NCBI GenBank assembly: GCA_025331445.1
Contig: JAIWNE010000114.1
Location: 1-64,000 of the forward strand
Direction: 5' to 3'
Source: Blakeslea trispora
Taxonomy: Eukaryota > Mucoromycota > Mucoromycetes > Mucorales > Choanephoraceae
DNA length: 64,000 nucleotides
Part shown: in pieces, positions 18,365 to 63,500 of the stretch
How positions within the stretch are numbered: the first letter of the stretch is position 1
How the letters are laid out: each line of letters opens with the position of its first letter
Translations under genes and position numbers: made by a program
Notes under the pieces: model-generated
What the model was told of the DNA's origin: nothing
The model's database searches: none
The model's input: only the letters and a program-made list of their open reading frames with translations

Positions 18365-18504
18365 ACTTTTCTTTTCTAAATTTTGCAGTTGGTATCGATA
18401 TTTTGTTTTTAAACCCCGAAGTCACTACACCGAATGCTTGACCAACGTACGGTGGTCATCCACGGTTAACATGGTCTTAGGTGCACCCCAAACCCAAATA
18501 TTGA

Positions 18505-18690
18505 TTTTGATTATAAAGATTGCTGTTTTTTTGACAGATATTTAGATGTATAATTTGGACTTTCAGAACTTCTTACAGAATTCAAAACGAGTTTGTTTCC
18601 ATAAAGTTATAACCATTTAGATTTCTACCTGCTTAAAGAAAATTCGCTCTTTAAATTTTTTGGCAGTGATTTTTTGTCTTCTTGAATTTT
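18505..18690 (-). repeat. Conserved subterminal non-coding block, copy 1 (element A left arm)
   Basis: On the minus strand this block contains AAAAAATCACTGCCAAAAAA followed by AAAGAGCGAATTTTCTTTAAGC and a GGTTATAACTTTATGG word. Related blocks occupy the same relative place in A right (34962-35140), B (52776-52980) and C (63180-63385), though the outermost 50 bp of these elements differ. It is a candidate cis-element for transposase assembly or for the transposase promoter. Confidence 0.6.
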
Positions 18691-18699
18691 GAATCAACT

Positions 18700-20340
18700 T
18701 GATTTCCTTAATGCTGAGGAGTTTAAATTGACTTGTCTTTTTTTTTAAAAAATATAAGACCTGAAAATACAGCTAAAAAAATTGGAGAATATTTTCGGAA
18801 TGAGAAATTAAAAATTGAGAATGAGGCTCACAAAATAATTGGGAAAATCTTTTAAAAATGGAAATAAAAAACTTAAAGCACTGAAGAGAAAAACTCTAAT
18901 AAACCAAGAGAAAAAAACAAAAGAACCAATAAGAACGTGCAAGCAATTCTGATTTTTGTATTAGATCTTGCTAAACTAACCGTTTTATGTCTGTTTATGA
19001 AAGCACTCCTCCAAACATTAATTCCTTTACTCGTTTCTATACATTTACACACTTTATCATCTCAAAATAACAAACCGCATACAGAAATAAAGTAATAACT
19101 TGACAGGAAAGATGTCGTCTTTTTTATTGTATAAACACAATTCTTCAGCCAAATATCCAAACTTATTGTTCGTGATGCAGCCCATTCAAACAAAGATCCG
19201 TTTATATTCTAGCTAAAAGTATTACTTACCTCATACTTAACGAGCAATAAAGTGATCAACGGTGTAATTCACTAGCTGTGGTTATAATAATTACAACTGC
19301 ATACCAAATAGAAATGATGCCGAAAAGAAAGATCTTACACGTTTGTTGGGTCAAAGCCTTTTACTGAAATATTTAAAGAATCTTTATGGTTGTCCTTTTT
19401 CTTGATGCTTCTAGATTCTTGTCGACTTGTTCGTAACGCGCTTGAATTGTATTGGTTTATTGTAATGACTAAAGTCTATTGAGTTTCATCAGTCCTTTTT
19501 TTCTTTAGAGATGGGTAAGTCAGGAGTCAAGTTGTTTCAATAAAAAAAGTAAATTTGAAGCGAGGTAAAAAAATTTTCTGGGACATGTTTTTTTTAAAAG
19601 CGGAAGGAGTATTTCTGTATGAGAATAAAATTGACTGCCTTAATTTTTTTGTGTAAAAATGCACTATTCAAATCACTTAAAAAAGAGAAATCACTGTATT
19701 TTATTACGGCGTCTATCAACAGTTGAAAATAAAAGAGAGTAATTACTTACTGCAACTGCTTATCATACACAATGCTATATCTTTTTTATTTTCGTCTCTT
19801 TTGTAAGTATCTCAAACATCGGAGTGAAATAACCAAGATTGACCCTGATTTATTTTTCTAAGAAAAGACATCAAAATCTGACATTCAAAAACATCCTTTG
19901 AACCAAAAAATATGTATCAAAACACAGTCAAATAACAAAACAATATCATATTCACAAAATAAGGCATTCAATATTTAGTTGTCATGATGCAACAAATCTT
20001 GTCTACAAAAAGTAGAAACAATAAAGAGAGAATGCACAACTTTTGGAAAAAAGACTTGTGAACACGTTCTCTTCAACTCCGTGTATTACAGTAAGACAAG
20101 AATTGACAGACAGACAGAAATCCCTTAAAATTAGTAATAAAAAAAGTAAGTTCAAGAACAATGGCTGTCATTGTATTGAAACAGCATTTGGATCCTGAAA
20201 AGATTGTCGATAATATCATTCTAGTTCCAAATCAAGGGTAAACCATTGGTATATATATCACTGTCAACATTCAACGGAATTGGTATTTTCCTCACTTTTA
20301 CCCTCTCACTCTCTCTCTCACTCTCTCTCTATTATTTTTA
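18700..20340. other. Element A left arm non-coding leader
   Basis: About 1.6 kb precede the transposase start without a credible gene. The sequence is repeated, inverted, at 27600-29440. An interior block near 19080-19260 is also recognisable in element C near 62378-62560 (key word CGAACAATAA), so this leader is conserved between families. A (CT)-rich tract precedes the ATG. Confidence 0.5.
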
Positions 20341-20343
20341 AAA

Positions 20344-23300
20344 ATGTCTACTTCTACAAACTCTTCCGCTTGTAATGGTTTGATGGTGTGCTTTTGCACT
20401 GTATGCAAGGAAAACTCTCAAGTGGACATGGCAAGGTCACTAAGCGTACTTACCGTGAGCATCAAAAGCGTGAAGTTGAAAAGAGACAAAGACTTGAATG
20501 TAATTATACAACTTTTGTATATCTAATCATTATTGACATCTAATACTCATGCTTGTTTTGTAGATGATGCTACTCTCAATCACTTAACTCGGGTCTTACT
20601 TATTCACTCAACAGTCTTTTAGTCGAGATGGTAAGCTTTGCGGTATACGATATAATCTTACATACATTAACGTCAACTTAATAGAAATGGAGTTCTCTTT
20701 TGGTGTTGTTCCTCATACACCTACGCCTATTGAAGACATTCCAGCTGGAGACGTCAATCAAGATGGTATATCTCCATTCTCAATGTTTTTAAATGATCAA
20801 TAAACTTATTTATCATCCTTATTTTTTAAAAGCTCCTTACGAATGTCCTGTCAATGAGAATTTTCCTACTTCGCCTATCGCTTCACTTTTGTTCGCCATG
20901 CTACTCTTTTGCCCAAAAACCAGCTTGCCGATGTCACTCTGAAACAGTAATGCTTTTTTGCAACATGATTCTTTGTTTACGGAGGAAAGCTTTAGATTTC
21001 CTTCTACCATTGAGACTTTCGATAGATGGAACTCATCTGATAGACACAGAAGTAAATCAGTAAAGGAGTATGTAAACTGTACTCAATGTCACGCCTTTCA
21101 TCCATACAATTCAGATGAAGAAAAACAAAAAGTACAAGACCAACGCTATTGTGCAGACACTGGCATCTTCAACGACTCTGCTTTCTGTGAAGCCGAACTA
21201 TTAGTGACCAACCAGTACGGTAAACTTGCTCCAGTGAGATCATTCTTTTACAATTGTTGGTGATACTTAAAGGGTTTCTTCATGCGCATGGATTTGTCGA
21301 AAGTCTTACTCTCTAGAAAAACGCCAAGTTCTACCTGGTATGCTATCAGACATCTACGATGTCAAAGTCTGGAATGAGTTAGGATTAATAATACCGACAG
21401 CCAACCCTTTGTATTCCAGAGTGACTACAATCTGCTTCTTACGTTGAACTGCGACTGGTTCCAGGCATACAAAGAATCATACAGTGTTGGTGCAATCTAC
21501 TTACGATTCAGAACCTGCCTCGCGAAGTGCGTAATCTCCATACGAACACCATTTTAGTATGCTTGATACCTGGTCCTAGTGAGCCAAGCACGTATCAGAT
21601 GAACAACTACTTGCGCCCTCTGGTCAAAGAACTTTTGGTTTAATGAACGGTGTCCAAATGGAGACAGGACAAAGGCACTCATCTGATAAAGGCTGGTATC
21701 TCGTTGTATATGATGGATCTTCCTGCTCAGAAAAAAGTGGTGGGCTTGACATCCTGCACCTCAACCAACGGATGTCACAAGTGTAAGAAGCAATTCCCTG
21801 CATTCGTCCAAGGAAAGACGGCTCGTGATTTCACTGACTTCACATTGAGAACTGGGTCAAAAGAAGTAGCCAATAGCACCGAGAACAGGCAAGACAATGG
21901 TGCGACACCAAGACTAATGCTGAGCGTGTTCTTTTGGAGAAAGCAAACGGTACTCGTTGGAGCGTCCTTTTGGATTTGCCTTATTTTGACCCTATCCGTC
22001 ATGTTGGGGTAGATATTATGCATAATCTTCTCCTCGGCATCACAAAAAAATGGCAAAAGTTAGACAAGTCCTATGAAATCAGGTGCAAGTACACTCTCTC
22101 CTTTAATCGACTCCAAAGGTCTTAAAGACATGTAAGCAGTCTTGACAGATAAGTTTGTTTTGCCTCCGGGCCATGCGTTGTCGTCTATTGCTCGGAAAAT
22201 AGCAGTTGGTGATGGTTTTCGAACATGAAGGCTGACGAAAGGGCTACTTGGCTGTTGGTGCTTTCAAGACATTTGCTTCCGGCATATCTTGGTCAAAGAG
22301 CATACGAGCATTGGATGCTTTTTGTAAAGGCCTCAGAGATTTTTCTTTCCCCTTGTGTGTCCCTTGTTGAGCTTGACAATGCTCAGAATCTCTTGCACCC
22401 GTTCCTTTCTGGGTTTGACGCTGTATACAAGAACAAATCTTAATCACACCCAACTTCCACTACGCTTTGCATCTAAAGGAAACGATGTTAGATTACTCTG
22501 CTTCGCCTTCTCACTGGCTCTTTAACTTCGAACGATATAACCAGGACATCAAGACATCCGAACCAACAGAAAGGACTGCGTTGAGCGTACCTACCTCAAC
22601 AAATTCTTGTTGCAAGTTCATTTCGAAGAGTCAGTTGCATCCCTGTTGCCCTTTATACCCCAGTCATGTACTGCTCAAGTTCAAGACCTTTGGTAGTCTC
22701 AAGGCTAGACTTGGTAGCTTGGCGGATCGTAGCTTTTGTCTGAAAACCTTGTACAAGATACACATTGGAGATGTTCCTGCTTTTGGTTCCAAGCCTCTTC
22801 CTTCTGCTGCACTTGGGCCTAATAAGATCAGATTAGGACCTTGTCAGATGATATGTTCTTCTGCCTTGTCCTATACTACAACACTGTATACACTGGTGTC
22901 TATAAAGACGAGATATGCAGCATTTGTCCTGGCAATTCCGTACACGACAAGTAGACAAGTTCCTTGAGATTAATATACTGGGTAACCGGTTCAAGTCTGT
23001 TGAGGCTTCCACAAAAACAAACGCGGTTCGTATGCCTTGGCATACTACCAAGAAAATGATGTTGCTGTGCTCCGGTGTTGTCAATTGAATGTCTTTTAGA
23101 CATACAGTAATGGTAGAAGATGAAAACGGGGACAATCTCCAACAACATACATTTGCATATGTCAAGTGGTTTGTCCAATCTGACATGCAAATGCATTACT
23201 ATAACAACAGCGACTCTTCCAAGTACGGTATGAGGCTTCTAAAGAAGAATTTGAACCTCTTTCCATCGCATCCATCATACCTGCTAGTCAACTCTATAGC

Positions 23301-23373
23301 CAGATTGCTATTATTAAAACCATATTACAAACTTGCATGTTGCAATCGACCTGCCAGCCAATTAATAGCTTAG
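20344..23373 (+). pseudogene. Tnp2-type CACTA transposase, element A left copy (broken)
   Basis: Same gene as the right-arm copy but more decayed. It keeps the original ATG at 20344 (MSTSTNSS) and the first-exon Cys cluster (CFCTVCKEN), but loses a T shortly after, shifting frame. Recognisable parts are HYDRATED only in pieces: YVNCTQCHAFHPY near 21075, PVRSFFYN near 21230, the zinc-type segment DLPAQKKVVGLTSCTSTNGC near 21715, HVGVDIMHNLLLGITKK near 21995, SPSHWLFNFERYNQD near 22505 and the C-terminal YNNSDSSKYGMRLL near 23205. Many one-base indels lie between them. It shares with the right copy a missing base in CTAGAAAAACGCCAAG (near 21315). Confidence 0.85.
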
Positions 23374-23697
23374 ACTTTTCTTTATTTCACACATATATAT
23401 TTACCCTTGCCTTTTTTTTTGTATCTTGATGTTCTTGTCAGTTACTTTTTTTTTTATTTAATAAATTTTTATTTCCTGTTCTGCTTAATCTCTTTCTCTT
23501 TTTTTTAAAATTTTATTTTCCGTTTGATGAATTTTTAACAGCTACGCTTGCTCTTTCCTTCTACACGGGTAGCATTTAAGAGACATCAAAAGCAAGCATA
23601 TGTTACAAGCTAAGTATTCGAAAACACTGATACCAAGGGCTTATAGCTTTCTTAAACGCTTTTATTTATTAGAAAAAAAAGAAAAAGAAACCAACGT

Positions 23698-23816
23698 TAA
23701 GGTCTGAAGGCCCCAAAGAGGAAGCGCTTGACGATGTTCGTCAGACAACACCTTTTCAACAACCTGTTGACGACGAAAGACTTGGCAGCGGCTTCTGAGT
23801 CCTTCTTGTTGCTATT
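23698..23816 (-). pseudogene. Accessory-gene terminal exon fragment, element A left arm
   Basis: This is the reverse-complement copy of the end of the accessory gene seen intact in element B. The minus-strand frame ends ...LPLWAF and stops at 23698. The fragment is cut off at about 23816, where the inverted duplication begins, so upstream exons are missing. It is convergent with the left-arm transposase, as in B and C. Confidence 0.7.
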
Positions 23817-24034
23817 CCCTCTTGGCGCTCTCAAAAGGTGAGTTATAGGAGTTGTATTGTTGTTTCCATGATATTAACGCATCAATTTAGCTGACCAATT
23901 CTACACCTTCTTGACAAAGCAAAAAGAAGGACTCGAGAAGCCGCTGCCAAGTCTTTCGTCGTCAACAGGTTGTTGAAAAGGTGTTGTCTGACGAACATCG
24001 TCAAGCGCTTCCTCTTTGGGCCTTCAGACCTTAA
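23810..24034 (+). pseudogene. Accessory-gene last two exon pieces, element A right arm
   Basis: The end of exon 3 (IPSWRSQ, to 23837), a short intron (23838-23890, GTGAGT...TTTAG) and exon 4 (23891-24034) match the B and C accessory genes, including the SWRS exon end and the closing LPLWAF(R) segment. Exon 4 has a one-base loss just after the acceptor. An AATAAA poly(A) signal follows near 24063. The upstream exons are absent because the palindrome junction lies here. Confidence 0.75.
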
Positions 24035-24366
24035 CGTTGGTTTCTTTTTCTCTTTTTTTTCTAATAAATAAACCTTTAAAAAGTATAAGCTCTCCCAGTA
24101 TTGGTATGCAACTTGGAATACTTAGCTATATAATATATGCTTGCTTTTGATGTCTCTTGAATGCTACCCATGTAGAAGGAAAGAGCAAGCCACAGCTGTT
24201 AAAAAATTTCCACCGAATGGAAAAATAAAAAATTAAAAAAAAGAAAGAGATTAAGCAGAACAGGAAATAAAAATTTATTAAATAAAAAAAAAAGTAACTG
24301 ACAAGAACATTAAGATACAAAAAAAAGGCAAGGGTAAATATATATGTGTGAAAATAAAAGAAAAGT

Positions 24367-27300
24367 CTAAGCTATTAATTTGGCAGGCAGGTCGATTGCA
24401 ACATGTAAGTTTGTAATATGGTCTTTGACAATAGCAATCTGGCTATAGAGTTGACTAACAGGTATGATGGATGCGATGGAAAGAGGTTCAAATTCGTTCT
24501 TTAGAAGCCTCATACCGTACTTGGAAGAGTCGCTGTTGTTATAGTATTGCATTTGCATGTCAGATTGAACGAACCAGTTGACATATGCGAATGTGTGTAC
24601 TGTTGGAGATTAGTCACCGTTTTCATCTTCTACCATTACTGTATGTCTAAAGAGACATTCAATCTGACAACACCGGAGCACAGCAACATCATTTTCTTGG
24701 TAGTATGTCAAAGCATACGAACCGCGTTTGTTTTTTGTTGAAGCCTCAACAGACTTGAACCGGTTACCCAGTATGTTGATCTCAAGGAACTTGTCTACTT
24801 GTTGAGTTACCGGAATTGTACCAGAACAAAGTGCTGCGATATGCTGGTCTTTATAGGCACCAGAGTACACAGTGTTGTAATACAGGACAAGGCAGGAGAA
24901 CATATCATCTGACAAGGTACCTGATCTGATCTTATTAGGCCCAAGTGCAGCAGAAGGAAGAGGCTCGGAACCAAAAGCAGGAACATCTCCAATGCGTATC
25001 TTGTACAAGGTTTTGAGACAAAAGCTACGATCCGCCAAGCTAACAAGTCTAGCCTTAAGACTGCCAAAAAGATCTTCAACTTGAGCAGTACATGCCTGGG
25101 GTATAAAGGGCAACAGGGATGCAACAGACTCTTCGAAATGAACTTGCAATAGGAATTTGTTGAGGTAAGTACGCTCAACGCAGTCCTTTCTGTTGGTCCG
25201 GATAGTCTTGATGTCCTGGTTATACCTTTCAAAGTTAAAGAGCCAGTGAGAAGGCGAAGCAGAATAATCTAACATTGTTTCCTTTAGATGCAAAGCGTAG
25301 TGGAAGTTGGGCGTGATCAAGGACTTGTTCTTGTACACAGCGTCAAACTCAGAAAGGAACGAGTGCAGGAGGTTTTGAGCATTGTCGAGCTCAACAAGAG
25401 ACACACAAGGGGAAAGAAAAATCTCTGAGGCCTTTACAAAAAGCATCCAGTGCTCGTATGCTCTTTGACCAAGATATGCCGGAAGCAAATGTCTTGAAAG
25501 CACCAACAGCCAAGTAGCCCATTCGTCAGCCTTCATGTTCGAAAACCCATCACCAACTGCAATTTTCCGAGTAATAGACGACAACGCATGGCCCGGAGGC
25601 AAAACAAACTTATCTGCCAAGACTGCTTGCATGTCTTTAAGGCCTTTGGAGTCGATTAGAGGAGAGAGTGTTGTACCTGACTTCAAGGGACTTGTCCATA
25701 CTTTTGTCATTTTCTTTGTGATACCGAGGAGAAGGTTATGCATTATGTCAACCCCAACATGACGTACAGGGTTGAAATAAGGCAAATCCAAAAGGACGCT
25801 CCAGCGAATACCGTTTGCTTTCTCTAACAAAACACGCTCTGCATTGGTTTTGGTATTACGCCAGTTTTTTGCCAGTTCTCGGTGCTCTTGGCTGCTTCTT
25901 TTAATCCAATTTTCAACGTCAAAGTCGGTGAAATCACGAGCTGTCTTTCCTTGGACAAGTGCAGGGAATTGCTTCTTACACTTGTGACATCCGTTGGTTG
26001 AGGTGCAGGATGTCAAGCCGACTACTTTCTTCTGAGCAGGAAGATCCATCATATACAACGAGATACCAGCCTTTATCAGATGAGTGCCTTTAGTCCTTGT
26101 CTCCATTTGGACACCATTCATTAAGACCAAAAGCTCTTCGACCAGAGGGCGTAAGTAGTTGTTCATCTGATACGTGCTTGGCTCACTAGGACCAGGTATC
26201 AAGCATACCAAGATGGTGTTCGTACGGATATTACGCACTTCGCGAGGCAGGTTCTGAATTGTCAAGTAGATTGCACCAACACTGTATGATTCTTTGTATG
26301 CCTGGAACCAGTCGCAGTGCAACGTAAGAAGCGGGTTATAATCGCTCTGGAATACAAAGGGTTGGCTGTCGGTATCATTGATCTTAAACTCATTCCAGAC
26401 TTTGCCATCGTAGATGTCTGATAGCATACCAGGTAGAACTTGGCGTTTTTCCAGAGAGTAAGACTTTCGGCATATCTGTTGCGCATGAAGAAACCCTTCA
26501 AAGTATCCACCAACGAATTGTAAAAGAATGACCTCACTGGAGCAAGTTTACCGTACTGGTTGGTCACTAGTAATTCGGCTTCACAGAAAGCAGAGTCGTT
26601 GAAGATGCCAGTGTCTGCACAATAGCGTTGGTCTTGTACTTTTTGCTTTTCTTCATCTAAATCGTATGGATGGATGGCGTGACATTGAGTACAGTTCACA
26701 TATTCCTTTACTGCTTTGCTGCTGTGTTTGTTAGATGAGTTCCATCTATCGAAAGTTTCGATAGTGGCAGGAAATCCAAAGCTTTCTTTCGTAAGACAGA
26801 GCACCATGTTGCAAAAAAGCATTACTGTTTCAGAGGTGACATCGGCAAGCTGATTTTTGCGCAATAAGAGTAGCATGGCGAACAAAAGCGAAGCGATAGG
26901 CGAAGTAGGAAAATTCTCATTGACAGGACATTCGTAAGGAGCGTCTTAATAAGGATGAATAGATAATTTTATTGATCATTTAAAAAAATTGAGAATGGAG
27001 ACATACCATCTTGATTGACGTCTTCAGCTGGAATGTCTTCAATTGGCGTGGGTGTATGAGGAACAACACCAAAAGAGAACTCCATTTCTATTCAGTTGAT
27101 GTTAATGTATGTAAGACTACATTGTATATCGCAAGGCTTACCATCGTCGACTAAAAGACTGTTGAGTGAATAAGTAAGTCCTGAGTTAAGTGAATGAGAG
27201 GTAGCATCATCTACAAAACAAGCATGAGTATTAGATGTCAATAATGATTAGATGTACGAAAGTTGTATAATTACATTCAAGTCTTTGTCTCTTTTCGACT

Positions 27301-27438
27301 TCACGCTTTTGATGCTCACGGTAAGCACGCTTAGTGACCTTGCCATGTCCAACTTGGGAGTTTTCCTTGCATACAGTGCAAAAGCACATCATCAAACCAT
27401 TACAGGTGGAAGAGTTGGTAGAAGTAGAAATTTTCGAA
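24367..27438 (-). pseudogene. Tnp2-type CACTA transposase, element A right copy (near-complete, broken)
   Basis: This transposase of the EnSpm/CACTA superfamily would cut at CACTA ends and give 3-bp duplications. Four exons can be traced. Exon 1 has a Cys cluster CFCTVCKEN and a basic KRAYREHQKRE. Exon 2 codes HSLNSGLTYSLNSLLVDD. Exon 3 codes MEFSFGVVPHTP. A long exon 4 follows from about 26935. Exon 4 carries the zinc-type segment DLPAQKKVVGLTSCTSTNGC, the Tnp2 signature VDIMHNLLLGITKK (compare DPMHNLFLG in Tnp2 proteins) and SPSHWLFNFERYNQDI. Breaks: the start codon is ATT (left arm has ATG at this place), one C is lost in TGGAAAAACGCC near 26447, and a TAA lies near 24613. The 605-residue frame from 26427 to 24610 is otherwise open. 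Confidence 0.88.
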
Positions 27439-28136
27439 AATAAGAGAGAGAGAAAGAAAGAGAGGATAAGAGTGAGGAAAATACCAATTCCGTTAAATGT
27501 TGACAATGATATATGTACCGATGGTTTACCCTTGATTTGGAACTGAGAATGATATTATCGACAATCTTTTCAGGATCCAAATGCTGTTTCAATACAATGA
27601 CAGCCATTGTTCTTGAACTTACTTTTTTTATTACTAATTTTAAGGGATTTCTGTCTGTCTGTCTGTCAATTCTTGTCTTACTGTAATACACGGAGTTGAA
27701 GAAAACGTGTTCACAAGTCTTTTTTCCAAAAGTTGTGCATTCTCTCTTTATTGTTTCTACTTTTTGTCGACAAGACTTGTTGCGTCATGACAACTAAATA
27801 TTGAATGCCTTATTTTGTGAATATGATATTGTTTCTGTTATTTGACTGTGTTTTGATACATATTTTTTGGTTCAAAAGATGTTTTTGAATGTCAGATTTT
27901 GATGTCTTTTCTTAGAAAAATAAATCAGGGTCAATCTTGGTTATTTCACTCCGATGTTTGAGGTACTTACAAAAGAGACGAAAATAAAAAAGACATAGCG
28001 TTGTGTATGATAAGCAGTTGCAGTAAGTAATTACTCTCTTTTATTTTCAACTGTTGATAGACGCCGTGATAAAAGTACAATCATTTCTCTTTTTTAACTG
28101 ATTTGAATAGTACATTTTTACACAAAAAATCAAGGC

Positions 28137-28456
28137 TGTGATATTTCTAGTATAATTGATAACAAGTAAAATTCAATCAGACCAAAAATAAGCTGTCCTT
28201 TATTCAATTCAAATTATTCTCTTATTTATATAAAACTAAGTGGTCCCACGTTAGAACTGAGAATGTTGGCTTCTTCCATTCTTTAGGATATTCATCTATA
28301 AAGAATGGCACTTTTAATTTATGTGATGATTCATCTGACTATGGAAAGGGGTAATGCACTCCTAAATGCGCTCTCAGACTCTGGATGTACTAATCGTCTG
28401 TGCTTGCACTTGTATCTCTGGTTAGGGGTAACCACTAATGTAGCGTGCATGCAACA
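28137..28456. repeat. Solo LTR, 320 bp, in element A right arm
   Basis: It begins TGTGATATTTC and ends GCATGCAACA, with direct 5-bp flanks AAGGC at 28132-28136 and 28457-28461. The left arm has the uninterrupted site (AAGGC once, inverted, near 19637-19641), so the boundaries are supported by an internal empty site. It is absent from the left arm, so it arrived after the duplication or after the arms separated. Confidence 0.88.
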
Positions 28457-29441
28457 AAGGCAGACAATTTTATTCTCATACAGAAATATTCCTTCCGCTT
28501 TTAAAAAAAACATGTCCCAGAAAATTTTTTTACCTCGCTTCAAATTTACTTTTTTTATTGAAACAATCTTGATTCCTGACTTTCCCATCTCTAAAGAAAA
28601 AAGGACTGATGAAACTCAATAGACTTTAGTCATTACGATAAACCAATACAATTCAAGTGCGTTACGAACAAGTCGGCAAGAATCTAGAAGCATCAAGAAA
28701 AAGGACAACTATAAAGATTCTTTAATTATTTCAGTAAAAGGCTTTGACACCAACAAACGTGTAAGATCTTTCTTTTCGGCATCATTTCCATTTGGTATGC
28801 AAGTTATAATTATTAATAACCCACAGCTAGTGAATTACACCGTTGATCACTTTATTGCTCGTTAAGTATGAGGTAAGTAATACTTTTAGCCTAGAATATA
28901 AACAGATCTTTGTTTGAATGGGCTGCATCGCGAACAATAAGTTTGGGTATTTGGCTGAAGAGTTGTGTTGATACAATAAAAAAGACGACATCTTTCCTGT
29001 CAAGTTATTACTTTATTTCTGTATGCGGTTATGTTATTTTGAGATGATAAAGTGTATTAATGTATAGAAACGAGTGAAAGAGAATTAATGTTTTGGATGA
29101 GTGCTTTCACAAACAGACATAAAAACGGTTAGCTTTAGCAAGATCTAATACAAAAATCAGAATTGCTTGCACGTTCTAATTGGTTCTTTTGTTTTTTTTC
29201 TCTTGGTTTATTTAGAATCCTTTCTCTTCAGTGCTTTAAGTTTTTTATTTCCCATTTTTAAAAGATTTTCCCAATTATTTTGTGAACCTTATTCTCAATT
29301 TTCTAATTTCTCAATTCCGAAAATATTCTCCAATTTTTTTAGCTGTAATTTTTCAGGTCTTTATATTTTTAAAGAAAAAAAGACAAGTCAATTTAAATTC
29401 CTCAGCATTAAGAAAATCAAGTTGATTCAAAATCTCAAGAA
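28457..29441. other. Element A right arm non-coding leader
   Basis: Inverted copy of the left-arm leader (about 18690-19640). No credible gene; short frames are not shared in phase between the two arms. Confidence 0.5.
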
Positions 29442-29766: not shown

Positions 29767-29783
29767 TACTCCCCCAGACAAAT

Positions 29784-50368: not shown

Positions 50369-50384
50369 AGCAATAGGAAAGTAT

Positions 50385-52380: not shown

Positions 52381-52381
52381 A

Positions 52382-52712
52382 TGAACATTTATTTATGGCT
52401 CTTAGCTTCAAATTAATTTTATTTATCAAACAAGTAAAAACACAAAAGCTAAAATGAAAGAAATGAAAGCATAATAATGGTAATACTAACCAACGTGTTG
52501 GTAACAAGTTGAAGAACATATACAAGACAAAATTAGTGAATATATTGATGTGAAATAAAAGTGAAGAAAAGTGGAGACATATAAAAGTATTTGTCAAATT
52601 ATTTTATAAAATATGGTAAACGGTGTTGATCATCTCGATATACAACATTATTACTAACATCAACCAAGTCAGTTAGACAATAAAGTAGATACCTCTGGTA
52701 CAGCACAGAACA
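52382..52712. repeat. Diverged LTR-like relic related to the Ty3-1 LTR
   Basis: Shares scattered words with the Ty3-1 LTR (ATGGTA..ACTAACCAA..GTTGGTAAC; GCACAGAACA end) and has similar length (about 331 against 325 bp). No target duplication is visible, so the ends are tentative. Confidence 0.45.
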
Positions 52713-52775
52713 GTATTTAACAAAAAAAAAGATTTAAACTCCTCAGCTTAAAAAATAAAAAAATGTAGGGAAAAT

Positions 52776-52980
52776 TAGGCAGAAAAAAAATCACTGTCAA
52801 AAATTTCAGAGAAGCGGAATTCTTTAAGCACTAAAGACATGCTCTAAAAAATAAATGGGTATAACTTGATGAAAATGCAACCAATTTCGATTCTGAAAGA
52901 AATTTTCAATACTTTAACTAACCCTCAGCATTTGCAGCTAAAAACATAGCAAGTTTCATAAACAAAATCGAAAGTTGTAA
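52776..52980 (+). repeat. Conserved subterminal block, copy 3 (element B)
   Basis: Contains AAAAAATCACTGTCAAAAAT, a TCTTTAAGCA word and GGGTATAACTTGATG in the same order as the A and C copies, about 90-280 nt from the element end once the Tc1 insert is removed. Confidence 0.6.
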
Positions 52981-53146
52981 ATTTGGATATTTTGGACATC
53001 TTGTCCATTGCACTTGTCCATTGTACAGTCAGAACGAAAAAAAAAGATAATTTTTAAGACTCCGCAAAAAAGGGTAAATGTATGACACGTCTTACATTCC
53101 CATCATTCTACCTCTCTTTCTTAATAAAATTCCTTAAAACTCACAA

Positions 53147-55038
53147 TATGCCTCAATTATCCACTGAACTCAAAGCTATCATTGTTGATCGTTGGCAAAG
53201 AAACCAACCACAGATCGAAATTGCCCAAGAACTTGGAATTAACCCAGTCACTGTTAACAGGACCATCAAGAGATTTCAAGCCAGAGGTACCGTTGAAAGA
53301 GCTGGGGGCTCTGGAAGACCCAAATCTCTTGACGAACGAAGCAAGAGAGTTCTGAAGAGAGCCATCCAAAAGGACAGATCTGTTACGCTTGCTTCTTTGC
53401 AGCAAGAGCTGCCAGTAAAGGTGCACACCCAAACCATTGCAAAGGAGTTGCATGGTTTGGGTTACAACAAGAGAGTTGCGGCAAAGAAGCCTTTTCTAAA
53501 GGAAGCCCATACGGAGAAGAGGCTTCAATTTGCCAAAGCTCACCAAAACTGGACAATAGAGCAATGAAAGCAAGTCGTCTGGACAGATGAGTCCAGCGTG
53601 GAAATCGGCAAGGATATCTTGCAAAAAAAAGTCTGGAGACTGCCCGAGGAGAAGTACAAGAAGGACTGCTTGAAACTTTCCTTCAAGAGTGGAAGGACCA
53701 GCGTTATGGTTTGGGGGGCTATTTGTGGCTACAACAAGTCCGAGTTGGTGTTCTTGCCCGAAGACAAAAGAACAAGCAGGGATTTTGTAGACCTAATCTA
53801 CAAGCCTGTTCTTCTGGACTTTCTCCGGAGCAATCCTGGATCCGTCTTGATGGAAGACAATGCCAGCATCCACACTGCCCAGGCAGCCAAGGAGTGGAGG
53901 GATCTCAGTGGGGTTTGTGATATTTGCAGTCTCAAAAAGATTCAATGAGAGGGAACTCGATTTTTTTATCAAAAAGAAAGAGAGAGAACTAATTCTACTG
54001 CAAGTCCATGTTGTGTTTATATATTATTTCTATCTCGGTTTCAATCAATCACTCCGTTATAATTTTATCTGTATGAGCAGTTTTCCTACTAGGATGACTG
54101 GTCACCTTAATGGAAAGATGGCTGTAGCCAGATTTCATCCCCCGCCTTGAATAAGGTGGAGATATATTGTTTACTTGATTTATATCTTGGAGAGATAATA
54201 ATTATGCTCGACAAGATATGTTTTAATCTTGATTAGTGTTTCAATATATCAGGCATAACTGTTTTATACTTGTTCACTTGTTTCGTTGGATGTTTAGATC
54301 AGTTTAGATTAGGTGATAACGATAGACAAGCCCTTTGTAATTATGTCTCAGAACTATCTTTATCCAAGTAATGATTTAGTCTTTTCCTATAATGAAATCT
54401 CTAGCATCATTGCTTGTTTTGTTAGATGCTGCTACCTTGGTATTATAAGGCCTATGCAACCATCCTGCTATCACATGTGTCATGTCATATAGCCATTTCA
54501 AGTATTGATGAGAAGAGAGTCAATGAATATAAATCTGATCCTGCTTTCAATGTGTTAGCTAGGCACATTGAGCACTTTATATATCATATCATCGCTTTTT
54601 ACCAATGCTTGTTAGATGTTTGATTTCAGGATTACCTCTGGTAATATCTGAAATGATTTTAAGTTTCCAACTTTGTGAACATTATTTGATTTATTGTTAT
54701 TTTGACATTATCTGTCAAAATAACCTTTTATGATGATTAATTGAATTTCCGATTATAAGTCGTTCTGGCTTCTATATTTGCCCAAATACGACAGGGTTGA
54801 GAAAATAGAGTGGCCTGCTCAATCCCCTGATCTCAACCCCATTGAGAACGTCTGGAGTGAAATGAAGCGACGCTTCCATCAAGACTGGTCCAGGTTTAAA
54901 GGCCAGAAAAGCAATGAGGAGGTGCTGGTGGATGCTTGGAACAGTATCACTGTCGAATACCTCGATAAAACTCTTTCAAGCATGCCATCACGCATGAAAA
55001 AAGTGATTGCTGCCAAAGGAGGCTCAATTGACTCCTAG
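53147..55038 (+). pseudogene. Tc1 DD34E transposase, interrupted
   Basis: Starts MPQLSTELKAIIVDRWQ. An N-terminal helix-turn-helix pair (IAQELGINPVTVNRTIKRF) is followed by a GRPK-type hook (GSGRPKS) and the catalytic core: D in VVWTDESS near 53585, D in LMEDNASIH near 53858, and E in SPDLNPIENVW near 54845. The 878-bp LTR at 53916-54793 splits it. Taking that insert and one target copy out brings WRDLSG in frame with VEKIEWP. Exactly 34 residues then separate the second D from the E, as in Tc1. One nonsense change (TGA where WKQVVWTD is expected) lies at 53565-53567. Confidence 0.92.
53916..54793. repeat. Solo LTR, 878 bp, inside the Tc1 gene
   Basis: Begins TGTGATATTTGCAG and ends AATACGACA. 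Direct GGGTT flanks it at 53911-53915 and 54794-54798. The first ten bases equal those of the 320-bp solo LTR at 28137, so the two may belong to related retrotransposons. No gag or pol inside. Confidence 0.9.
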
Positions 55039-55289
55039 GCAAGCAATCCAAAAATAAAACACATCTTTTGCCCCAATTTTTTTATAATTTTATTAATTAG
55101 ACGTTTGAAAGTGTATGATCCGAAAAAAGAAAGCTCGGTTAACTAAGAAGTATTGACTGAACAACAAGTAAAATGGTCCTCATCCCTCATGATGACCTTG
55201 TCGGAGTTTAAAAAATTATCTTTTTTTTTCGTTCTGACTGTACATTGGACAACCATTAGGTGTAGTGCAAACACTACACATAAAGGGTC

Positions 55290-55470
55290 GTCGTGCGCAC
55301 GCCAATTTCTGCGGTTAACTTGCCTGTTACGCACGTTCCAGGCAAGTTAACCGCACGGCGCACGCCGTCATGTGTTTTCGCATTGGGACGACAAAGCGGA
55401 ACACTGTCATGTGTCAACGCATTGGAAGACAGGGCGGAGCAACGTCTTGTGTTTTCGCATGAGAGTTTGA
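55290..55470. repeat. Element C left subterminal repeats
   Basis: GC-rich inverted words (GCGGTTAACTTGCCTG / CAGGCAAGTTAACCGC) and repeats of GTGTTTTCGCATTGG / GTGTCAACGCATTGG form a family-specific subterminal array distinct from that of B. Confidence 0.7.
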
Positions 55471-55862
55471 GTGAACCTCTTTGTCTTCCGCTTTCATTAA
55501 AACGACCTGATTGGATTGTTTACTCATGACATCCTCATTCAATTGGCTTCTTTATCAAAATATACAATCATCAATTCGTTTTAATTGGCTTCATACTCGG
55601 TATCTTTATTGAATGTATGCATTTAATTGGACAAAATGGACTTCTTTACGTCAATACACTTCTTTATGATTGGGTTATATAGATCAAATATAGAGGATTA
55701 TAGGTCTAAAAATAGTGCTTTTTATTATAAAAAAATGGTATATATTGGCTGAAAATAATAGCTTATACAGGGGGAAAATATTAGGGGTTCTATAGGAATC
55801 CAGGTAGAATGAATAGGCAGAAATCCAGCCAAAATGTTAGGCAAAATGATGGGCAAAATACG

Positions 55863-55955
55863 GCCAAAAGGCAGGCAAAAGGCAGGCAAAAGGCAGGCAA
55901 AAGGCAGGCAAAAGGCAGGCAAAAGGCAGGCAAAAGGCAGGCAGAAAAGCAGGCA
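55863..55955. repeat. 11-bp tandem repeat (AAAAGGCAGGC), about 8 copies
   Basis: Near-perfect head-to-tail copies in the accessory-side leader of element C. The Leu/Cys-rich minus-strand frame across it reflects the repeat and is not a gene. Confidence 0.92.
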
Positions 55956-56772
55956 GAAAAGCAAAATCAGTTATTACAAAATGGCAACAATTTCTTGAAT
56001 TTCAGGCATTTAAAAATCAGAAAAATTCTGGCAAAATGACTATTGAAATGGTAAATCAGTTAGTTATAAAGCAAGCAGAAAATATTGTAATATACTTACT
56101 TTAAAAGTCTCAAACAGCCATCCGGAAAGTAGAGGGTAACGCACTAAAGCGATAGAAGCTCAACAACAGAAAAAAAACTAGAAAAACTGAATAAGTTAAA
56201 CCGAAATGAGATAATTTAATCATTTACTTACATACTAAAGCATCATAGCACCTCAAGTTATAGCCAGATACAATTACGAGTGTCTAAGGTAACTAAATAG
56301 AACAGTTAGAGAGGCCTTGAGTCATATTCAATGACTTTACTTACTATATACCCAGTTTCTCGAGAAAAGACAAAAATACGTGACTAATCCTAAGAAAAAA
56401 AGGATGGTAAGTAAACAGCAATATACTTGTTTGTCAAATTGTACCTTAAACTAAGTAACAATCTTCATGAGGCTTTAAAGAAAACATGCCTACATGGAGA
56501 ATAATATTCAATAAACTGCTGCTTGGGTATGGGAAAGTACTTACAAGTTTTATTTCAAAATGAAGATAAAATAAAAGAAATAGAAGAGAAAAGAATAAAA
56601 AATGACAAAGAAAATCGTTCTAAATAAATTGAAATATCATCAAACTCCTATTTTTACACAAAAAACCAATCGAACACAAAAAAAGATTTGTAAAAATACG
56701 ATCTGTAGAAAATTGTATAAAAAGAGATGCAAGATACTCGATTTGATTTCATCATCTTTTTATTCCCACAAA

Positions 56773-57832
56773 ATGAACCAGATTCCTGTTGTTGCCACCG
56801 CTTCTCGCCCTGTCTCTCGCCCTGTTTCTCGCCCTGCCCCTCGTCCTGCTGCTTCTCGTCCTGTAGTGCATCCCTATGTTGCTGAGAGCCGGTTTGAAGA
56901 GGCTTTCGACCTCATGAACAGTCGCGTCGGCAGAATGGAAGCCATTTTTTTCCCTACTCGCCAGCCCACCGCCAATGCCAACGATGGGCCCAGATATGGT
57001 GATAACCGTGCCTTGCGAGTAAGTTATTCATCTCCTTTCATACTACCACTTTTACTTACATATTTATATTGTTGCTTAGGATGCTGTCAAAGTTGCCATC
57101 GAAAAGGCAAAGGCTCTCGGTATCGAATTCGTTTTTGACCAGTCGATGAGGCATACTACAAGAAACCAGTTTGCCTTCGATTGCATCTACAAAGGTGCAA
57201 TCGAAGAAGTAAAGGCTCCACTGGTCACCCGGATGATCAAGAGCTTTCTGCTGGTCTTCTCTTGGCCTTGAAGATGAAGATCAGAAACCAGTTCGATGCT
57301 ATGGTCAAGAAGCATAAAAAGAAAGACCTCACTCCTCACGAGGTTGAGATGAGAAATGCTTCGCTTCGTAAAGCTAGACGTTTGCAGAGAGTTAGTAAAA
57401 CAATTTACTGTCAAGTTTTAAATAATTAATCACCTCTTTTTTTTTATAGAAGCGTGCTGTTCGCAACGAACAGTACCTTGTTTCTCAAGGTTTGCTTGGT
57501 TTGGGCTTTGGTACAAGCGAAGAATGTGAGGCTGTACTTCAGTCAAAGTACATGTCCGAGGAAGAAGAGGGTGATGACTCTGTTGCTGGCGGTTACTTCC
57601 GCACAGTTGTTCCTTCTTGGCGCTCGGAAGAGGTATGTTGTATGACTTGTAGTTCTCAAATACAGTACTGATTCTATATGTTTAGTTGAACAACTTCTAC
57701 CGTGCGCTCGACAGAGCAGCCATGCAAGGCAGACCAAGACATGCTCGTGTTTCTCGTCGCGTCGAGGTCGTTGAGATGGAGTTGCCTGACAAGTATCGTC
57801 AAGTTCTTCCTCGTTGGGCTTATCGCTCCTAA
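56773..57832 (+). pseudogene. CACTA accessory protein gene, element C (one-base deletion)
   Basis: Homologue of the gene at 45787. Exons are 56773-57018, 57080-57390, 57450-57632 and 57686-57832, with introns at the same places. Exon 2 is 311 nt against 312 in B; the frame changes after IEEVKA near 57215 and resumes with TGHPDDQELS, so one base is missing. Conserved items are the Arg/Pro/Ala/Ser repeats at the N-terminus (SRPVSRP), KIRNQF, an acidic YMSEEEEGDD, VVPSWRS and the closing LPRWAYRS. The N-terminal and loop sequences differ strongly from B while the exon borders and motifs are kept, which argues for selection in the past. Confidence 0.8.
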
Positions 57833-58099
57833 CTTTTGTTTCGTTCTCTTCTCTTTGTGTTGTTGTTTTTTTTTTTGAAATAATAAAATGTTTAAGTCAA
57901 AAAATAATATAAGTGTATAAGAAAAGTACTTAGCTGCATGATAAGTGTTGATTTCCAAAGTTGATGTCGAAATGAAGAGTAAACGCAACAATAAAAAAAT
58001 CGAAAAGTGATAGTTCAAAAATTAAAAAAAAAAGAAGAGAGATTTGAAAAAGATTAAAAGGATTATAACAATTTATTGAAGAACAGATAAATTAGAAAA

Positions 58100-58300
58100 A
58101 AAAAAGTAATTGATGTGAGAACAACAAATACAAAAAAAAATATGACTATAAAAAAGAGAAAAAGAAAAAAGAGAAAAAGAGAAAAAGAGAAAAAGAGAAA
58201 AAAGAAAAAAAGAGAAAAAGAGAAAAAGAGAAAAAGAGAAAAAGAGAAAAAGAGAAAAGAAAAAAGAAAAAGAGGAAAGAGAAGAGAGAAGAGAGAAAGC
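58100..58300. repeat. Purine microsatellite between convergent genes (element C)
   Basis: (GAGAAAAA)n-type tract ending next to the transposase stop codon, in the same place as the one in element B. Confidence 0.85.
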
Positions 58301-58303
58301 AAA

Positions 58304-61300
58304 CTAGGCAATTATTTTAGCGGGCAGATCAAGAGCAACATGGAGATTTTCAAAATGGTTTAGAACAATAGCAGCTTGGCTGTAGAGCTGACTAATGGGT
58401 ATAATGGAAGTATGCGAGTCAACTTCAAAAAAGACTGCAAGAGCTCCATACCATACTTGTTGGGATCGCTGTTGTTTTCGTAGTATAATTGCTTGTCTGA
58501 TTTTTTAAACCATTTGACAAAAGCGAGAGTGTGGGTTGTTGGTGATAGGTCACCGTTTTCATCTTCTACCATGATTGAGCTTCTGAACAGACACTGCACT
58601 TGACAGTACTGAAGTACAGCAGTGTCGTCTTGTTGAAAGTATGCAAGAGCATATGAACCACGTTTCTTTATTGTTGACGCCTCAACAGACTTAAACTGAT
58701 TACCCAGTACATCGACATGCTTGAACATGTCAACTTGTCTTCCAACAGAGATAGTTCCTGGACACAATGCAGCTATGAATTCATCTTTGTAGGTTCCAGC
58801 ATATATCGTATTGTAATATGCTACGAGACAAGTGAATGCATCATTTGGCAATGCGATAGGTCGGGCCTTGATCGAAGTGATGGTCTTTGGAGGAAGTACC
58901 TCACAACCAAAAGCGGGAACATCGCCAATACGCATTTGATAGAAAGCGTTAAGACTAAAATTGCAGTCTACCGATCTCTGACTAGCAGGTTTAGATGTAC
59001 AGAAAAGCTCTAGGATTTGGCTTGTACAAGACTCAGGTATGGATGGTAACAAGGCTGCGATTAAAGTCTCGGAATGAACCTGGAGCAAGAACTTGGTAAG
59101 ATATGTACGTTCTACACCATCCTTTCTATTCGTTCTTATGCCTTTAAGATCTTGGTTGTATCTCTCAAAGTTAAAGAGCCAATGGGAAGGGGATGCCGAG
59201 TAGTCCAAAATTGTCTCTTTCAGATGCATGGCGTAATGGAAGTTGGGGGGAATCAATGACTTGCTTTTGTATATACTTTCGAAATTTGAGAGAAATTCAT
59301 GTAAGAAGGCTTGAGCATCATTGAGTTCATCGAAGGACAAACAAGGAGAGAGAAAGATACGCGAAGCTTTAACAAGCAGCATCCAGTGATCAAAGATCTG
59401 TTTGTTAAGGATATGCGGCAGCAAGTATGGCGACAAGACCAACAACCAAGTAGACCATTCGTCTGCCTTAAATCGAGAGAAGCCATCACCTATTGTAATT
59501 TTACGAGCTATAGATGACACTGCATGGTTGGGAGGGAGAATAAACTTGGTTTGCAAGATTGCTTGCATGCCTCGTAAGTCCTTGACGGAGACCATTGGCT
59601 CGATGGTTCTGGTACCTGTGGTCATTGGGCTTGTCCAAATGGTGGCCATGCGCTTAGTGACGCCCAAGAGAAGATTGTGCATGATATCGATCCCTACATG
59701 ACGTATGGGATCGAAATAAGGTAGATCCAAGAGGACGCTCCACCGAGTACCATTCTCTCTTTCTTTCTCTGCACGCTCTGTCTTGGTGGTGGTCTTGAGC
59801 CAGTCTTCGGCATGGCGACGGTGTTCTTGGCTTGTTCTTCTGGTCCAGGCTTCCACATTGAAATCGGAGAAGTCCCGAGGGGCTTGACCTCTAACTAAAG
59901 CCGGGAAATGCTTCTTGCACTTGTGACATGCATTAACCGAAGTGTAAGAAGTTAATCCTACCACTTTCTTCTGGGCAGGCAAGTCCATCATGTACAGGGA
60001 GATGGCGGCCTTGACTACTTGCATGCCATTGCCTCTTGTCTTCATTGGTATACCTTCTTTCAATAATAAAAGATCTTGTACTAAAGGACGCAGGTAGTTG
60101 TTCATTTCGTATGTGCTAGGTTCTTTAGGGCCGCTAATCAAACACACCAAAATGGTGTTGGTGCGTAGATTACGGACCTCACGGGGCAAATTCTGAATAG
60201 TCAGATAAATAGCACCAACGCTGTAGTCATCCTTGTACGCTTGGAACCAGTCACAATTGAGAGTCAAGAGCAGGTTATAGTTGCTTTGCTCAACGAAAGG
60301 CTTTTCATCAGTTTCTTGAAGTTTGAAAGTCTTCCAGACTTGACCATCATAAATATCAGACAAAGTACCGGGAATAACCTCTCTGAAATTCCATTGGCTG
60401 ATGAGATCAACAAAAGTATCTCTCATGAAAAACGACTCCAAAGAATTGACCAACGAGTTGTAGTAAAATGAGCGAATAGGAGCAATCAATTTGGCCTGGC
60501 AAATGGCAGAGGAAGCAAAAATACCAGCGTCTAAACAATAAACTTGTTCTTGGATCTTCTCTTTTCTTCTTCTGTGTCGTATGGGTGGATAGCATGGCAT
60601 TCGACACAGTTAGCATATTCCTTGACACTATTGCTGCTATAGTTGCTTGACAAGTTCCAGTTGTCAAAGGTGGATACCTTACTAGGAAAGCGAAAGCTTT
60701 CTTCGGTCAGGCAGAGCACCATGTTACAAAACAACATAACAGTTTCGGAAGTGGCGTCGGTAAGCTGATTCTTACGCAACAAGAGAAGCATTGCAAACAA
60801 GAGAGTAGCGATGGGTGAAGTGGGATAGTTCTCATTCACGTAATAATCGTTTTGAACATCTAAAATAGATTGTAAAAAAAATTGAGTTTATTGATCATTT
60901 AGAAACAATTCGAAAGGGGACATACCATCTTGAACGATGTCTTCAACTAGGTTGGCTTCGACAGGTGTGGCTTCATGAGGAGTCTCACCGAAAGAAAAGC
61001 CCAATTCTATTATTCGCTTTTTAGTAATCGTGCGAGTATACTATAAAAAAAAGTGAACTTACCTTCATCAACCAAAAGACTATCGAGGGCAAAAGTAAGG
61101 CCTGAACTAAGAGTAGGATGGCTAGCACGATCTAAGAATTAAGAGAGTATGAGTTGTCAATAATAATCATAAAAAGTAAGTTTAAAAAATTACAATCAGC
61201 CTTGTGTTTTCTTAAGGATTCACGCTTTTGATGTTGACGGCTAGTACGCTTAGTCACCATTCTGTAGCAAAGGGGGATGTTTTGCTTGCACTCAGAGCAT

Positions 61301-61341
61301 TCGCATCTAATCATGCCATCGTTGGTAGAAGGGGTAGACAT
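58304..61341 (-). pseudogene. Tnp2-type CACTA transposase, element C (best preserved)
   Basis: Exon 1 61341 to about 61193 (MSTPSTNDG; Cys cluster CECSECKQN; basic SRQHQKRES), exon 2 about 61132-61064 (SSGLTFALDSLLVDE), exon 3 about 61005-60927 (ELGFSFGETPHE), exon 4 from about 60860. Splice phases match the A copy. Exon 4 holds YANCVECHAIHPY, RSFYYNSL, DLPAQKKVVGLTSYTSVNAC with CHKCKKHFP, RHVGIDIMHNLLLGVTKRM and SPSHWLFNFERYNQDL. The 746-residue frame (60600-58360) is open. Only two single-base shifts break the gene, near 60560 (EEEK) and near 58433 close to the C-terminus, which ends DLPAKIIA at 58304. Confidence 0.9.
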
Positions 61342-61344
61342 TTT

Positions 61345-63180
61345 GTGAATAGTGATTTTTTTGAAGAGGTTAGAAAGAATAAAATTCGAGAAAGAGCATA
61401 AAATAAAAGTGAATCTAGTATTTAATATTTTTAAGTTATGACAATGCTTGTACCTGATCTCGATGAGAATCGCATAAAATGATCATCCCTTCGATGGCGA
61501 CAGCCTGAATCAATGCCCGCTCAGGTCATATCTCACAAAGGTGACAAGAATAATTATTCAGGACAGCCTTTAAATGTCAGATTAAAAATGAACACACTTT
61601 TTTACAGATTGGCAAGTAAACAATTACAATATAAATCACAAAAACTGGTTTATAGGATTAAATTCCAATAAAAAAATAAAGATATTCTACTCTTTCAGCC
61701 TTTTAGGCTGTGTCTTTATGAAAAGTTTTCACTAAACTTTAATCACTCTAATTTTTAATCTTTATAAGAATCGTAAAAAAATGATTATTCCTTCGATGGC
61801 AACAGCCTAAATTAATGTCCGCTCAGCTCGTATCTCGCGAGTGTGCTAAGAATACTTTTTCAAGATGGAAGCACAAAGAAGAATTGCTAACATTGTGCTT
61901 TAAATGAGCTGTACTTGACTAAACCAATAGTGTAGATATCATTACATGTGTAATTCATTAGAGTAAATATTTGAGATACTTTACAGCACAAAAAATAAAA
62001 TGTTATTCATAATGAAAGGTGACAGCTTTTCTGAAATAATCTTTTATTTTTTTTTCGAATGATTTTTTTTCTCTCGTTCTATTTTTTTTTTTACTGAACC
62101 AACCTTTTCCTCTTCATTTATATATCCTTCAAATAGCTTGATAAACCTCAACAAACTCTAGTCATCACAACAAAGCAAAGCAACACAATTGCTTAATCAA
62201 CAGCCCTACAAGAGCCTCGAAGTTTAGAGTAAAGAATGACTTGGATCGTGGATACAAAAAAAAGTTAACGCTAGCAAACGTGTAAGATTCTTTCAATTCG
62301 GCATCACTGTTTTTTACACCCAAGTATTAGTTATTGCAGTACACAGCTATTGAAATCTACTGTTGAACACTTTACAAGAGGTAAGTAGTACTTTTGGTTT
62401 AGATTGTAAACGGCTCTTTGTTGGAACGGACTGCATCACGAACAATAACCTTGGATATTTGGTTGAAGAATTGTTTTTGAACAATAAAAAAAGACAGCAT
62501 CTTTCATGTCAAGTTATTACTTTATTTTTATATGTGGCTATGTTATTCTGGGATGATATGTATAGAAACGAGTATAAGGGAATGGAATACGATAAAAAGG
62601 ACTGTTGGCATAAAATAGTGTGTGATAATGACTTTGGCCTTACTTTATTTATGAATCATGAAAGGGATTAGCATCTTTGTATTGTATTTCAAAAATAAAC
62701 CTTCAATACGAGCAGCTTTAACAAGATCTAGTATAAGGATTAAATTATGTTTGTATGTTGTCTACGTCTTTATTTTGACAACTTTTGGCTTTTCAAACTA
62801 CCCATCTTTAAGCGATTGTTAAATACTTTTTCAGTATCTCTTTTTCTTTTCAGCATCTTTTTTTTGGTGTTTTTTTTGAGTGTCTTTCTTTTTTTTTGAG
62901 TATCTTTTTTTTTTATTTTTTTTGAGTGTCTTTTTTATTTTATTTTTTTTTGAGTGTCTATTTTTTTTTTTTTTCGAGAGTGTTATTTTTGCACACCTTT
63001 AAAAGATTTTCCCAATAATTTTATGAGTCTCATTCTCAATTTTATAATTTCTCGCTTCCGAAAATATTTTCCAATTTTTTAAGCAGTGATTTTTCAGGTC
63101 TTTATTTTTTTTAAAGAAAAAATGACAATTCAATTTAAACTCCTCAGCATTAAGGAAATCAGGTTGCTTTAAAATCTTAA
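61345..63180. other. Element C transposase-side non-coding leader
   Basis: About 1.8 kb without a supported gene. Two diverged copies of a block ending TCGATGGC(A/G)ACAGCCT lie near 61480-61560 and 61780-61850. T-rich GAGTGTC-T(n) repeats fill 62860-62990. The segment 62378-62560 is conserved with element A (near 28865-29040). Confidence 0.55.
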
Positions 63181-63385
63181 GCAGAGAAAAAATCACTGCC
63201 AAAAAAATTTAAAGAGCGAAATTTCTTTGAGCAGTGAAATGATAGAAGAAATGTAAATGGTAATAACTTTATGAATATACATCCAAATTTAATTTTGTAA
63301 AAAGTTTTAGAAGGCTAGAAGATACATCTACATTTCTGCCCAAAAAAACAGCAACTTTCATAGTCAAAATCAAAAGTTGGAAAAA
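63180..63385 (+). repeat. Conserved subterminal block, copy 4 (element C)
   Basis: Has AAAAAATCACTGCCAAAAAA, AAAGAGCGAAATTTCTTTGAGC and AATGGTAATAACTTTATGAA in the same order as the other copies. Confidence 0.6.
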
Positions 63386-63500
63386 TAAGCCCATGTTAGC
63401 CGCACTTGTCCGACGTGCGTCCGACTCGGGTTAGGTGTAGTGGCTTGTACTGCTTTTTAAGCCGATCTAATTACTATATTTCATCTCACAAAAGAAAAGT

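Follow-up and report, generated by a model that had tools for sequence, protein, structure and literature searches.

CACTA DNA transposons of Blakeslea trispora lie within a narrow distance upstream of transfer RNA genes, very likely through docking on the promoter complex

The bacterial transposon Tn7 inserts at a single site, attTn7, at a fixed distance and in a fixed orientation beside a conserved gene; it does so through a targeting protein, a dedicated DNA-binding subunit, and displays target immunity. Tethered, position-locked integration beside genes of RNA polymerase III (Pol III) has so far been a retrotransposon story, and in the available part of a review DNA transposons are mentioned once, in the general introduction (PMC5911963). 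The TRE5 retrotransposons of Dictyostelium, which lack long terminal repeats (LTRs), insert 40-54 bp upstream of transfer RNA (tRNA) genes, and one of their proteins is reported to bind subunits of TFIIIB (PMC5911963); in principle, genes of any isotype are used (PMC5633606). Ty3-like LTR retrotransposons (Ty3, DGLT-A, Tj1) use an integrase and are inserted beside tRNA genes, at the start site, through TFIIIB (PMC5911963, PMC8632968). Dada elements, DNA transposons with a DDE transposase, target tRNA and small nuclear RNA genes; each insertion falls at a given sequence within the RNA gene and makes a 6-7 bp duplication, and the isotypes used are specific to the family (PMC3706591). We analyzed a 64,000-nucleotide (nt) stretch of Blakeslea trispora DNA (the window; part of contig C18) together with the assembly from which it comes (37,198,342 bases in 285 contigs). 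At least nine terminus families of CACTA (EnSpm) transposons insert with a fixed end towards tRNA genes, of which many isotypes are used, at a distance of ca. 51-58 nt on the upstream side, very likely by docking on the tRNA promoter complex.

Where Tn7 shows target immunity, the Blakeslea CACTA elements stack. With TRE5 they share a narrow distance upstream of tRNA genes, many isotypes and one orientation; TRE5, however, is a retrotransposon that copies RNA into a nick, whereas the CACTA elements are cut-and-paste transposons with 3-bp duplications and a distance of 51-58 nt (PMC5911963, PMC5633606). Their site is further out than that of Ty3-like elements, which the LTR elements of this genome resemble in behavior (PMC5911963, PMC8632968). 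The reverse transcription that characterizes the tRNA-targeted retrotransposons TRE5 and Ty3 was not found in the CACTA elements, whose frames encode DNA transposases and whose termini have CACTA motifs; they therefore work like TRE5 and Ty3 but belong to neither. They are DDE-transposase DNA transposons, as Dada is, but unlike Dada they lie outside the gene at all 41 sites pooled below, use many isotypes and make 3-bp duplications (PMC3706591). An earlier note on the window knew of no description of fixed-distance insertion upstream of tRNA genes for CACTA transposons, and a literature search, with subscription journals mostly outside its reach, likewise found no earlier description. What appears to be new is the combination of a CACTA DNA transposon with position-locked tRNA targeting; such targeting in retrotransposons, and Dada insertion inside tRNA genes, were known.

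The same note had reported that ends of two CACTA elements of the window, here called A and C, both lie exactly 58 nt from a tRNA gene. The gap between tRNA-Pro and element A is indeed 58 nt, and that between element C and tRNA-Thr is 58 nt by Rfam or 57 nt by ARAGORN; 58 nt as a fixed rule did not hold, since the gaps at the pooled sites span 51-58 nt. Copies of both ends were located in the assembly (28 for element A, at up to two mismatches, and 69 for element C, at up to three), and up to 400 nt outside the element was analyzed for 96 of the 97 ends; the end at C84:39, with 38 nt of contig outside it, was dropped. One end (L062, contig C151) had been entered 20 nt too far inside, so that its flank starts with 20 nt of the element, and no tRNA was called there. 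ARAGORN called a tRNA in 21 of the 96 flanks, and all 21 were co-oriented, pointing away from the element and starting 51-58 nt from it. No tRNA was called at another distance or in the opposite orientation within 400 nt of the 96 ends, the reverse of the random scatter that the earlier note had named as evidence against targeting. By chance, a co-oriented tRNA start at 51-58 nt is expected for ca. 0.0025 of the 97 ends, assuming 240 tRNA genes (239 are given for Rhizopus oryzae, PMC2699053); coincidence, which the note had left open, is not a tenable explanation at this excess. A second CACTA-type end was found within 14 nt of a further 35 ends. Outside the 21, the assignment of flanks to classes is a matter of judgement and not equally firm throughout. 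In the remaining 40 flanks we saw tRNA-like sequence at the expected position in one (L111), the first part of a tRNA-like sequence in three (L076, L088, L124), a decayed CACTA-like end at the flank start in five (L041, L082, L093, L113, L126), and a repeat junction ca. 50 nt out in 14 by alignment and ca. 10 more by eye.

A family-blind pattern, which combined the terminal motif TGTAGTG with an A box and a B box, gave 32 sites with the tRNA start 43-73 nt away, and none at 12-42, 74-104 or 105-135 nt; with the inverted motif (CACTACA in place of TGTAGTG), no site was found at 43-73 nt. The backward pattern, used as a control, gave counts of three (43-73 nt), one (74-104 nt), one (12-42 nt), zero (105-135 nt) and zero (inverted motif). 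ARAGORN confirmed a tRNA at 30 of the 32 sites. Pooling of family-blind sites, the direct list and L011, each with an ARAGORN tRNA, yielded 41 sites, with gaps of 51 (one site), 52 (one), 54 (one), 55 (12), 56 (12), 57 (nine) and 58 nt (five), i.e., 38 sites at 55-58 nt, all 41 in one orientation. This is the sharp, one-sided peak that the earlier note had proposed to look for. The pooled sites comprise 14 tRNA isotypes and nine terminus families, defined at 85% over 30 nt. Their intervals fall into 31 distinct sequences at a cut-off of 75% and 35 at 80%; shuffled intervals reached at most 71%. The spacing is thus independent of a single duplication, as had been argued from the two window cases, and the intervals are not one shared ancestral sequence, though some of those before different tRNAs are related. 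Kept outside the 41 were L111 and L146, with tRNA-like sequence at the right place and no ARAGORN call, and L013, with TATAGTG for TGTAGTG.

The relationship was also seen from the side of the tRNA genes. An Rfam search gave at least 57 tRNA genes, a lower bound. When 1.5 kb upstream of 30 Rfam tRNA loci was inspected, TGTAGTG was present at 55-58 nt in eight; four others had it at 318, 559, 560 and 1231 nt, and in two the motif was present in inverted form, 322 and 868 nt away. Within 1 kb of the 57 listed genes lay nine of the 97 tRNA-facing ends (gaps of 51, 55, 56, 56, 57, 58, 58, 58 and 559 nt), none of 61 distal ends and none of 49 Tc1/mariner ends.

The two ends of an element are not equivalent. 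In A, B and C (B being another CACTA element of the window), the end that faces the tRNA lies on the upstream side of the transposase frames, and the Transposase_21 genes point away from it, which bears out the earlier placement of these ends on the transposase-promoter side. The family C distal end was found in 62 copies, of which 61 were examined (the one on contig C104 was left out), and no tRNA was called within the next 150 nt of any of the 61. Twenty-two C distal ends adjoin another element, and the neighboring end is of the tRNA-facing type in each case (20 by pattern, two variants by eye); the stacks therefore run head to tail towards the gene. Conversely, tRNA-facing ends adjoin distal types in 18 of 22 cases for C and nine of 12 for A, counts that are partly circular, types x3a and x3c having been named distal because none was seen to face a tRNA. 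Head-to-head exceptions, with a neighbor of the tRNA-facing type, were seen at one of the 22 C ends and three of the 12 A ends (one of the three by eye).

Exact 3-bp duplications flank 24 of 48 pairs of C ends, while 2.2 are expected with shuffled partners; no 4-bp duplication was found in the 48 pairs. The 24 duplications comprise 18 different triplets. Both ends are known for 17 stacked C elements. In nine, the 3-bp duplication takes in bases adjoining the older neighbor, so the C copy entered between that neighbor and the tRNA; the other eight have no 3-bp duplication. Since a different transposon occupies the outer side of the site in those nine stacks, the site was apparently measured from the tRNA. 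Newer copies sit between older copies and the tRNA, making head-to-tail stacks, of which this window is one. We also observed that 30 of the 48 C end pairs cover 2879-3078 bp and represent a short form of remarkably even length; to judge from their length, these short copies are presumably non-autonomous.

The features of the window between tRNA-Pro and tRNA-Thr are as follows.

18293..18364, minus strand: tRNA-Pro(agg) gene (ARAGORN, Rfam)
18365..18422, minus strand: 58-nt interval between tRNA-Pro and element A
18423..35218: CACTA element A, 16,796 bp, built as a large palindrome, each side having an end of the tRNA-facing type
29442..34957 (edges approximate), minus strand: gypsy-type LTR element nested inside A
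35221..37388: CACTA element D, 2,168 bp, GAC duplication at either side, tRNA-facing end at 37388
37389..37439, plus strand: 51 nt similar to DNA immediately upstream of tRNA genes, truncated by the following element
37440..44271, minus strand: gypsy-type LTR element, right LTR split by B
44272..55267, minus strand: CACTA element B, 10,996 bp, CAA duplication at either side
47339-49952: transposase pieces of element B
about 53026-55240: Tc1/mariner insertion in element B
55272..63442, minus strand: CACTA element C, 8,171 bp, distal end at 55272, tRNA-facing end at 63442
58360..60609, minus strand: C transposase frame, 749 amino acids stop to stop, Transposase_21, predicted RAG1-like fold
63443..63500, plus strand: interval between element C and tRNA-Thr, 58 nt (57 nt by ARAGORN)
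63501..63572 (Rfam) or 63500-63573 (ARAGORN), plus strand: tRNA-Thr(tgt) gene

This arrangement fits successive insertions of D, the LTR element, B and C at a single tRNA gene, C being the latest. B entered the LTR element that starts at 37440 in its right LTR, at the point where the related LTR at L219 leaves 58 nt to the tRNA. The two flanks of window element C differ from each other, which makes exchange between copies likely there. Element A is flanked by AGT and ACC, i.e., there is no target duplication, and contains transposase open reading frames in each arm; its giant palindrome perhaps represents two fused copies, and its arms measure ca. 5.5 kb each once the nested LTR element is excluded. 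On contig C50 (L139) the tRNA-Pro interval recurs in identical form, so these two sites count as one event.

The ends of A, B, C and D begin with CACTACA, as do the nine terminus families at tRNA genes, and the transposase frames of A, B and C exceed the Pfam cut-off for Transposase_21 (TNP2-type). CACTA/EnSpm elements generally make target duplications of 2-3 bp, and besides the 24 C pairs a 3-bp duplication was found at window elements B and D, with none at A and C. Structure prediction gives the C transposase the RAG1/Transib-like catalytic fold expected of the superfamily. Its best match has 58% identity; a Choanephora cucurbitarum protein has 56%, and Mucor and Rhizopus proteins are among those that follow. 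By these sequence features, we assign A, B, C and D to the CACTA (EnSpm) DNA transposons, the transposase being readable in A, B and C.

Distance, orientation, 3-bp duplications, a very weak target preference and recurrent insertion at one and the same position are read directly from the sequence. To account for them, we propose that the transposase, alone or with a partner, would dock on the protein complex occupying the tRNA promoter. It would approach the Pol III initiation complex from the upstream (outer) side, one way round; if just one half of the paired-end complex made the contact, distance and orientation would be fixed together. That Pol III factors provide the dock is probable in our view; that the dock is TFIIIB itself, the likeliest candidate, is somewhat favored.

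Other explanations have to be weighed against docking. The transposase could recognize a DNA sequence, such as the LTR ends common at tRNA start sites, the tRNA itself being incidental; some intervals before different tRNAs do show relatedness, and several look like LTR ends. Yet there are 31-35 distinct intervals at the 41 sites, and base preference is slight: the three duplicated bases have 0.43, 0.32 and 0.19 bit, and none of positions 4-15 exceeds 0.11 bit. When sites are aligned on the tRNA, the signal reaches 0.66 bit between -5 and -11, close to the presumed start site, and further out none exceeds 0.24 bit. In stacks, moreover, the outer-side DNA is another transposon, and we regard sequence recognition as quite improbable. 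Chromatin at tRNA genes is generally open, and the elements might simply prefer open, nucleosome-free DNA, with tRNA promoters as its best example and without specific contact to a Pol III factor. An 8-nt window with one orientation at 41 of 41 sites is hard to obtain from openness alone, however, and the 49 Tc1/mariner ends show no proximity to the 57 listed tRNA genes; this explanation is improbable.

Two further possibilities would dispense with targeting at the time of insertion or multiply a few events. Places beside tRNA genes are considered safe for retrotransposons (PMC5911963, PMC5006619), and insertion could be random, with survival only of copies in such harmless places. A spread of 51-58 nt with a fixed end is hard to produce by survival, and neighboring distances and the other orientation, equally safe, are empty, so that we find selective survival highly improbable. 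Alternatively, a few transposon-tRNA units may have been multiplied through duplication or recombination, as might be suggested by three site pairs with identical or near-identical intervals (L133/L139, L135/L138, L141/L150) and by the unmatched flanks of window element C, which exchange between copies would yield. The 14 isotypes, nine terminus families, 31-35 intervals and 18 triplets among 24 duplications limit this process to a minority of sites, and as a general account it is barely credible.

Several observations weigh against docking at tRNA promoters as a full account. Seven of the 96 flanks could not be placed (L049, L061, L068, L069, L070, L073, L079), and half of the C end pairs (24 of 48) have no 3-bp duplication. 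One distal C end of the 61, L204 (C27:84083), adjoins a stretch that resembles a tRNA's 3' half and is the sole exception to the polarity. Of 18 flanks of the class with ca. 50 nt followed by another repeat that were extended, 16 had no tRNA within 1000 nt; full-length LTR elements would place the tRNA beyond 1000 nt in such flanks, and the class is verified only in part. Two 5S loci and one U6 locus were found, without a CACTA motif in their 1.5-kb flanks. All mapping comes from one genome, and the protein contact is deduced from a pattern in DNA.

LTR elements are inserted at the same tRNA genes. Co-localization of Ty3 elements with tRNA genes has been reported in Rhizopus oryzae (PMC2699053), and this layer is therefore not new. 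From their sequence context, gypsy-type LTR elements seem to insert closer to the tRNA than CACTA elements do, near the start site. At L022 and L032, which have different tRNAs, upstream DNA is shared from -558 to -1 at 97%; upstream DNA common to different tRNAs is as expected from LTR elements inserted at about the start site, and at least part of the relatedness of intervals appears to stem from such LTR ends. Subtraction of the LTR restores the CACTA spacing. L026 and L036 carry solo LTRs of 499 and 498 bp with 4-bp duplications between the CACTA end and the tRNA, and the gap without them is 57 nt in both; at L103, subtraction of a 738-bp LTR candidate leaves 54 nt. At L131, where the window's gypsy-type element has a full-length copy, a tRNA was predicted beyond that copy, near C278:26866, and a tRNA-Cys starting at 26894 was found; the outer pieces total 63 nt, or 58-59 nt after removal of a 4-5 bp duplication. 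Overall, LTR subtraction gave 54-59 nt in the four cases with a tRNA found beyond.

Combining both layers, we think it likely, though a little less so than docking as such, that these elements represent a clade of eukaryotic cut-and-paste transposons with Pol III-guided integration. The outer face of the complex at the tRNA promoter would fix distance and orientation, the LTR elements of the same genome using its inner face, and each tRNA gene would hold an ordered record of transposition; the tether would reside on the transposase, a BAH-like C-terminal domain being a candidate. The CACTA system would then be a second protein solution to the ruler problem solved by Ty3, and the fixing of orientation by a cut-and-paste element raises the question of how the loading of a transposase complex with two ends is confined to a single direction. 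From the stacks, the order of past insertions can be read, and the system could be a model for insertion at harmless sites.

Some further repeats were noticed around tRNA genes and in the rest of the window. A repeat starting near TGTTACAGGAC lies within ca. 110 nt downstream of the tRNA in ca. 20 of 31 loci (by eye, among the loci listed: window about 63617-64000 and 18198 downwards; L009-L038; L220). Beyond tRNA-Thr it leads into gag- and reverse-transcriptase-like frames in the direction of the tRNA, and we read it as a downstream-targeting LTR element, reminiscent of Skipper-2 or TRE3. Palindromes of the TCACGTGA or CCGGNCCGG kind occur ca. 45-65 nt before many tRNA genes (e.g., L009, L016, L022, L026, L033 and L037) and are in some cases parts of LTR ends. 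On the minus strand of the window, positions 378-1226, 3161-3865 and 11414-12187 hold pieces of a Helitron (a Pif1 helicase part and a weak Helitron_like_N match) and of a non-LTR retrotransposon (zf-RVT), and positions 14292-16465 a pair of transposase-like frames whose only Pfam match, a weak one, is to DDE_3.

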